From NCBI GenBank assembly GCA_020152595.1, contig JAIGNY010000573.1, positions 370,001 through 434,000 of the forward strand: a DNA stretch of 64,000 bases, written 5' to 3'. The notes under the pieces are model-generated. The model was not told the origin of the DNA and did not search any database. It saw nothing but the letters and a program-made list of their open reading frames with translations. The DNA is from Chiridota heheva. Taxonomy: Eukaryota > Echinodermata > Holothuroidea > Apodida > Chiridotidae. Positions 50,101 to 60,447 of this stretch are shown here, piece after piece (positions within the stretch are counted from its first letter, which is position 1; each line of letters begins with the position of its first letter). Made by a program: the position numbers and the translations under genes.

Positions 50101-53100
50101 TCAAATTTGACATTTTATTTGTAATTTCCTATGGTAACCATCTTGTAGGGCATTCGTAATGTTGTTTGTTGCATTTTAGACCATGATGACTAGTTTAAAA
50201 CACTCCTTTTCTTCAGTATCCACTAAGTCTGTATGACGTCACTCTCCTGCAAATAGACTTTCTACAATGGTCGTTTTACCAGGAATTTGTAACACTGTTA
50301 AAACTAGTTATTTCCTGAATTGATCTTCACATTTATGTTGATTATGATGGAAATGTTTTAAACCTTTGTAACAGTATGATATGTAAGTCTTTCATCATTT
50401 GGTTTTGCATTCTTTGGCTTCCATCTTCATTTCTACTTGGATACAGTGGTGCTTATAATTACTTGTTCATTACATTTGCAGAAAAATGATGTCATTGTTT
50501 GCATCCATGAGGGATGAAATTAACATTAAATTTATAATGCAACCGTGACTGAAAAATTTGTGTGAATGATAAGAAATGAATTATGTATAAACCTCAGTAC
50601 TTGTAAATTCAGTATTTACCATCCCTCAGTAGGCCTGAACTTGAAGTGTTTTTGTCTGCATATCTTGAATGCATTGCGCTAGCTAAACCAAAGTATGCCT
50701 GTCACTGCTTTGTCTTAGATCACGATTGGGGAGATATTGCCATCACAGCAAGCCTTTGACTCGTTGCTGAGGTACATCTACTACGGAGCCGTTATCATGC
50801 CACCAGAGGATTCACTGTATCCTTTTATTATCTGCTTTGCTTCATCCCAATCATAGACGTAGTTTATCAATTTGTTTTTCATCCCAATCGTAGACGTACT
50901 TTAACAAGATCAAATTATTTTGCCAAGTGAAGTTTTCCTATTCTCACTGATTTGGTGTGGAGTATTTGAGGCCTTCTCAGTGCAGGTTTTGCTTAAAATA
51001 TATCAGTCAGGAGAAGGAGTACTTTTCCCTGCCCCCGTCTCCTCTACACGCTCATCACCACAGTCAATTAACCTGTTTGAGTTAGATGATTGACAGCTTT
51101 TTCACCAATCACCGCATGAATTTGCCTAACAACAAAATCTGCGTAATTAAATGGGGCAAACATCCTATGCAGTCCTGGTATAGTACAACCAGCTAGCAGC
51201 GCGTGCTCATGTAGTCAATGCAATTTACTGTACAAAACAAATTCCTGCACACACAGACCAAGTGACGGCAAAATGGTGAACAAAAAAATTGCAGTTACAG
51301 GAAATCTGATTCCTGTTACCCAGAACACTTAGCAAACTGAATTTTGTTTATCCCTTTTGCTAAGAACTATAAAGATCGAAGAAGTGCCATAAATGGATCA
51401 AAGCTTGCGACAAGCCTCGCATACATCTAAATGTCAATGCATTGGTAATGCACGATTGCGGATTTGAGGTTTGTTTTCCACCACCTAGTTACCGCGTTGC
51501 TATGGTGGGTGTGGCTTATTTCATAACTAAGAGACGTTAATTGTATCAATGAAGCACAAGCCAAATTTGAAATGTGTTTTGATTTTTTAGTTGCTAAAAA
51601 AAGTGTTTTTTTAATGGTAGATTCAAGTGTTCTAATAGTTAAATTGACCAATTTTTCACGCACTGTTGAACTTATTTAAAATAAAATGAAGCTTAACACT
51701 TGATAGCTTTTGATATTTAGTGAGAAATAATGTGTTAGCCACTTTTCAATGGAAACGGTTACATTTTTAGCTCGACTATTTCCAATAGTAGAGCTACTGT
51801 GTTCTACTATCCCCGGCGTTGGCGTCCGGCATCGGTGGCCAGTTAAAGTTTTGGCTAAAGTTTTTGGTTAGTTTTTAGTTTAAAGTTTTAATAAGTTATG
51901 AATGGTGTACACTCATGTAACTTGGCATAGAGGACATGGGTAAAGTCAGTTACCAGCCTAGCGAAAAGTCACTTATTCTCTTCTGTGCATATTCTGCCCA
52001 CTCAGATTTATGAATATTTAATGAGCTGAAACATGCTGTTTTTGGAAGGTGAGAACAGCTTTGTTAGAACAAAAAAGGTTATCAATGCATGAAATTTAGG
52101 CAGATAAAGGATTGAAAATACTATCCATTAACACTTAAAGAGTAATTTGAGCAAAAATGATAATAATCGGAGGGATTTATAACGATTTCATATTTGGAAA
52201 AAAAGGGTGCCAAAAAACGTGGTCACAAACCACATTTCCACTCTTGGGCCCATACAATCTTTGCATATGTGATAGAAATTCCTTTTTATATAAATCTATG
52301 AAAATAAGCATGAAAATCAGAGGAATCCGGTCAGGGGTTCGCAAGTTTTGCACCTAATTCCAGAGGAACCATGTTGATTTTACTAATATCATACGATCCA
52401 TATCATGATTGGACAATGTTCAGTCACGTGGTGTTGTTTACATCTGTATCATAATCTCGCATGTCAGCATGTGTATGCTGTATACATACAGTATGAAATG
52501 GCGTTCACACGAAATAGCTACAAACCCTTCATAATCCCCTGATAACTTGTTTCTTTGAAATAACAAACAGTATATACTTCAGATTACATGGGAATCTTAA
52601 TTGTATATCAAATTCATAATAAAATGAATGATATTTAGTGATGACGGAGCTTTTTGAGGCAACTGAATACACTCAGTGTATGTAGGGTTTTGATAATTAG
52701 AAGCTTGGTGTATGCATGTGGTGTCAATGCTGATTTTCTCAAATTCAGCCTGTGCAGTAGTATTTTCACTACTCATTTGCTCTAATTCCTAGGGTTAAAT
52801 ACATTTATATTTGCTTATACTGCTAACATACCATTTTACCAGAGATTACTTATCCCAAATAACAAATCCCTGATTTCATGTAATTCCTGTAAACACATTG
52901 TTACCTTGTAGGCCTATTGGTGTCAATTTTCATCAGCATGAACTACAGATTGGACTCTGCCTCCTTGGACAAAATTTTAAATCAAGATTATTTTAGTAAT
53001 TTACTATGATAGCATTTTAATGAATTATGGCAATTAAAATTACACGGATTTAAACATAACGAAAAATATTCATTTTTTTATTTTATAGACCTGGGGATGA

Positions 53101-60447: not shown

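Follow-up and report, generated by a model that had tools for sequence, protein, structure and literature searches.

The window analysed here, the whole 64,000-nucleotide stretch of Chiridota heheva DNA, holds a gene that we assign to LZTR1, and within this gene lies a GT-AG intron whose ends resemble those of the U12 (minor) class (Table 1). Colinear exons were found from 17095 to ~60345 by tblastn, for which a provisional sequence of the human LZTR1 protein served as the guide. The best solved-structure match of the kelch piece in the PDB was the LZTR1 kelch domain (9mey, E 2.3e-44), and Pfam placed BTB and BACK domains in the joined C-terminal piece; among the 29 PDB sequences found with the latter piece, none bore the LZTR1 name. 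The kelch match, the BTB-BACK domains and the colinear alignment to the provisional guide support LZTR1 as the host gene. Our model comprises 21 exons and 20 introns or gaps, with a putative start codon at 17068. At least one exon is missing from it between 39393 and 40187, where the phase passes from 1 to 0, and exon numbers are therefore provisional. The gap that conceals this exon is number 10 of the 20 introns or gaps and is included in all counts of 20 given below. The borders of introns 19 and 20 were placed by hand from the sequence and checked by translation. An earlier reading of this DNA, hereafter the original prediction, had set the intron of interest between exons 19 and 20, and its numbering agrees with the provisional model.

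Table 1. Positions of the LZTR1 coding span, the predicted minor intron and its flanking exons in the window
Feature	Position	Strand	Remarks
LZTR1 gene, putative ATG to TAA coding span	17068..60447	+	tblastn with provisional LZTR1 guide, splice-site fitting, PDB LZTR1 match
Exon 18 (provisional number), start of second BTB domain	49487..49671	+	Pfam BTB on joined C-terminal piece
Exon 19, last bases CT of split Leu codon (human codon 740)	50719..50816	+	
Predicted U12-type (minor) intron, 8,621 bp, GT-AG, phase 2	50817..59437	+	
Predicted U12-type 5' splice site GTATCCTTTT	50817..50826	+	read directly
In-frame TAG if intron retained, 13 residues into intron	50854..50856	+	
Diverged repeat block, minor intron	54503..56124	+	251-bp period at 55020-55528
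22-bp minisatellite, unit AGGGTGGGTTGGCATGTGGAAC, ~64 units by length, inside minor intron	56284..57700	+	
U12-type branch-site match CCTTAAT	59417..59423	+	last base 14 nt ahead of final intron base
3' splice site AG	59436..59437	+	
Exon 20, 187 nt, length equal to human c.2220-2406	59438..59624	+	
Exon 21 including stop codon	60262..60447	+	

Several other elements occupy the introns of the gene. Intron 6 holds, at 29107-29200, a 94-bp copy of the interior of exon 9 (38632-38725), with 86/94 positions identical; the ends of exon 9 are absent from the copy, which therefore probably represents a stray duplication rather than an alternative exon. Intron 7 contains a 32-bp tandem array of 65 copies (29480-31556). 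In intron 8 are a THAP-domain fragment (32441-32692; Pfam E 3.9e-09) and a LINE-like retroelement (33448-37985) in which Pfam identified endonuclease, reverse transcriptase and RNase H domains; the first frame of the retroelement (33448-34182) had no Pfam match. A reverse transcriptase fragment (RVT_1, Pfam) was found on the minus strand of intron 11 at 41077-41697. An Rfam scan of the window at gathering scores returned 0 matches.

By direct reading, the intron at 50817-59437 begins with GTATCCTTTT and ends with CCTTAATCAACCTGCTTCCAG. Exon 19 ends in GAG GAT TCA CT and exon 20 starts with A TTT CTC TTC GCT GCC CCG; the phase 2 junction splits a CTA (Leu) codon, and the joined exons read PPEDS-L-FLFAAP. 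Direct reading and translation thereby bear out the donor, the CCTTAAT branch match and the split Leu codon that had been described for the locus. The donor agrees with (A/G)TATCCTTT, the consensus used as the criterion for U12 5' splice sites in PMC8199999. Compared with GTATCCTTT, it matches at 9/9 positions, whereas the other 19 introns or gaps match at 2-6 of 9, and it is the only full U12 donor among the 20. Its U2 donor score (4/9) is the lowest of the 20. Scored by consensus, the intron comes out as U12-type, as the original prediction had it. At the other end, the branch stretch ACCTTAAT agrees with TCCTTAAC at 6/8 positions with the core CCTTAA intact, a count that introns 6 and 13 also reach through other matches. 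The final intron base is 16 nt from 59421 and 15 nt from 59422, the two candidate branch adenosines. Both fall inside the distance of 10-20 nt to the 3' splice site that PMC8199999 gives for U12 branch sites.

The intron is the longest of the 20 introns or gaps (the next are 6,588 and 5,933 bp, and the median is 774.5 bp), with a log-length z of 2.2 relative to the others. Tandem or window-shared repeats make up 3,815 of its 8,621 bases (44%). Intron 3 (25825-26249) and intron 15 (46806-47849) carry minisatellites related to the 56284-57700 array, with units of ~22-24 bp, and the repeat block at 54503-56124 is related to 7442-8800, upstream of the LZTR1 gene. Across species, the median lengths of minor and major introns are correlated (rho 0.903; PMC10639083), and a survey of 24 annotated genomes found that the mean length of either class follows the size of the genome (PMC7367187). 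One could read the length as selected, a long and slow minor intron tuning LZTR1 output in this lineage, and its rank, its z score and the 583 bp of the human intron would fit such a reading. We consider it very unlikely, however, given the size of the next two introns of the gene, the related minisatellites in introns 3 and 15, the 44% of repeat matches and the relation of mean length to genome size in both intron classes. The length of the intron owes much to the 22-bp minisatellite and other repeats, which probably accumulated neutrally. In the fly Hermetia illucens, the median length is 4,019 bp among minor introns and 105 bp among major ones (PMC10639083); minor introns can thus be disproportionately long, and a special cause is therefore possible in the present intron but not needed. 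What remains of the original description of the intron as unusually large is its first rank among the 20; in view of its two runners-up at 5.9 and 6.6 kb, the repeat content and the published length correlations, the adjective is a weak one.

According to PMC12652346 (2025), the U12 spliceosome normally removes human LZTR1 intron 18, whose borders are c.2219 and c.2220. Variant names in the same source place Tyr at 741 and c.2232 in Ala744, and the residue four after the split Leu is Ala in the window. Eight published human residues, taken from PMC12652346 and PMC10851011, were compared by ungapped counting from the junction: four are identical (Y726, R697, R688 and A744), three show conservative changes (Y741F, Y749F and I821L), and the eighth, M655, is displaced by an indel. 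Five borders published for the human gene were tested, and two of them (c.2219/2220 and c.2406/2407) are at exactly the position of a window junction. The window gene lacks a junction at c.2069/2070 and at c.2325/2326, and for c.1942/1943, where the comparison has gaps, the offset is 6 nt. The c.2219/2220 border coincides while two nearby human borders are absent, and the minor intron is therefore kept where some of its neighbours are not. By codon count, the placement of the intron at the same codon (740) and in the same phase 2 as human intron 18 holds. The original prediction had arrived at Leu 740 and c.2220 by counting from the human C-terminus and had called for an alignment of the exon 19/20 protein with human LZTR1; the junction falls exactly on the published border, and the residue comparison points the same way.

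The splice sites actually used could be others, or a nested U2 pair could be used in addition (a twintron). There is a human parallel, in that the U12 pair of LZTR1 intron 18 faces competition from a variant acceptor combined with a cryptic U2 donor at c.2219+61 (PMC12652346). In the window, the GTs at 50772 and 50927 have U2 donor scores of 6/9, comparable to five LZTR1 donors that score 5 or 6, and three other AGs in 59250-59480 (59369, 59377 and 59397) score 1.44, 1.50 and 1.62 compared with 1.69 for 59437. Nevertheless, 59437 is the best of these four AGs, and the conserved reading PPEDSLFLFAAP together with the published human border is obtained from 50817/59437 only, which renders different sites, or an additional U2 pair, highly improbable.

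Motif counts were used to judge how often such ends would arise by chance. RTATCCTTT was found 2 times on both strands of the 64 kb (2.59 expected), and CCTTRAY shortly before an AG was found 17 times (29.9 expected). In this strict scan, a single one of the 17 matches ends at an acceptor of the model, namely 59437. With the intron itself subtracted, a GT followed by ATCCTTT occurs at 1 of 3,873 GTs on the + strand, and CCTTRAY lies 24 to 6 bases before 8 of 3,297 AGs; the product of the donor and branch rates is ~6e-7 per junction. The two motifs are beyond chance because both meet at one junction that is fixed by protein homology. An ordinary U2-type intron with U12-like ends acquired by chance is extremely improbable: either motif taken singly is expected in a window of such size, and the bases scored ahead of the AG, where a U12 intron is expected to have no polypyrimidine tract, have a moderately high pyrimidine fraction of 0.69 (range in the other introns of the gene, 0.56-0.88), but the two signals share a single junction, which protein homology fixes and which falls at the codon that carries the U12 intron in human, and the U2 donor score of this intron ranks last. 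Very probably, this GT-AG intron of phase 2 and U12 type is orthologous to human LZTR1 intron 18, both going back to a common ancestor. The U12-like signals, phase, codon and stop that enter into this conserved-intron reading are read directly; the common descent of the two introns is what we infer.

Conservation of this intron has a precedent in zebrafish, whose lztr1 has a conserved U12 intron that is differentially retained in zrsr2 mutants (PMC9501576). On the other hand, a study of 18 genomes found human U12 introns to be common to invertebrates in only ~20% of comparisons (PMC2831892), and the average conservation of minor introns is below that of major introns (PMC10639083). Since conservation in zebrafish was already published, conservation in this animal is unsurprising, though not a given. 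Among the literature matches listed, in a search that covered titles and abstract openings, none dealt with a minor intron in an invertebrate LZTR1. The intron appears to be an ordinary addition to the known case of the LZTR1 minor intron, with a conservation that seems real.

A scan of a viral collection with exon 20 yielded 35 pattern stretches and 0 relatives. The scan of a genome collection yielded 175 stretches and one relative (L001:4852-5063), at the end of a contig of the bacterial MAG Candidatus Gracilibacteria SM1_231_1, with a coverage of 2.0 in its title. There, a DUF2158 stretch runs into an LZTR1-like BTB fragment without an intron at codon 740, and the two reading frames imply that one base is missing at the intron site. 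This is likely a chimeric assembly holding a piece of eukaryotic origin, and little weight is given to it.

The GTATCCTTT donor is recognized in minor splicing through base pairing, first with U11 and afterwards with U6atac; the pairing partner of the branch site is U12. In the window intron, CCTTAAT would be the site of U12 pairing, and the AG just 3' of it would presumably be used. Retention of the intron would lead to a stop 13 residues into it, inside the second BTB-BACK region, and the mRNA might then be subject to decay. With the stop in that place on retention, production of spliced mRNA, and through it of LZTR1, should require the minor spliceosome. Human LZTR1 is a CUL3 adaptor that lowers RAS-related GTPases, and in this animal a dependence on minor splicing could likewise have consequences for RAS.

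The original prediction also pointed to a disease variant at the same end of the human intron, c.2220-17C>A, which we take to be the variant that figures in the commentary on Inoue et al. This variant is indeed listed as a recessive LZTR1 variant in PMC10851011, and the link between ZRSR2 and LZTR1 in human, likewise named in the original prediction, is supported by the commentary (PMC8171363). The present locus adds this animal to those with a minor intron of medical relevance at codon 740, and the ZRSR2-LZTR1 link may therefore rest on old gene architecture. The proposal that LZTR1 has depended on the minor spliceosome since ancient times stands in part: the published conservation in zebrafish favours it, while the dependence in this animal is deduced from sequence. 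We regard as unlikely the broader view that this dependence and the link of minor splicing to RAS braking both predate the split between vertebrates and the lineage of this animal, and that the repeat-swollen intron makes LZTR1 output unusually sensitive to the efficiency of minor splicing.

Among known systems, human LZTR1 intron 18 is matched by the window intron in gene, codon (c.2219/2220), phase 2 and predicted minor-spliceosome type. The two differ in length, the human intron being 583 bp (from published GRCh37 positions) and the window intron 8,621 bp, and the human gene has two other published borders nearby that are without a junction in the window. The zebrafish lztr1 intron is conserved and of U12 type, as the window intron is predicted to be, but it belongs to a vertebrate and is documented by direct RNA evidence. 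Minor introns of several kilobases, as predicted in the window, are also found in Hermetia illucens, although in another lineage and as a median over many introns rather than the length of one.
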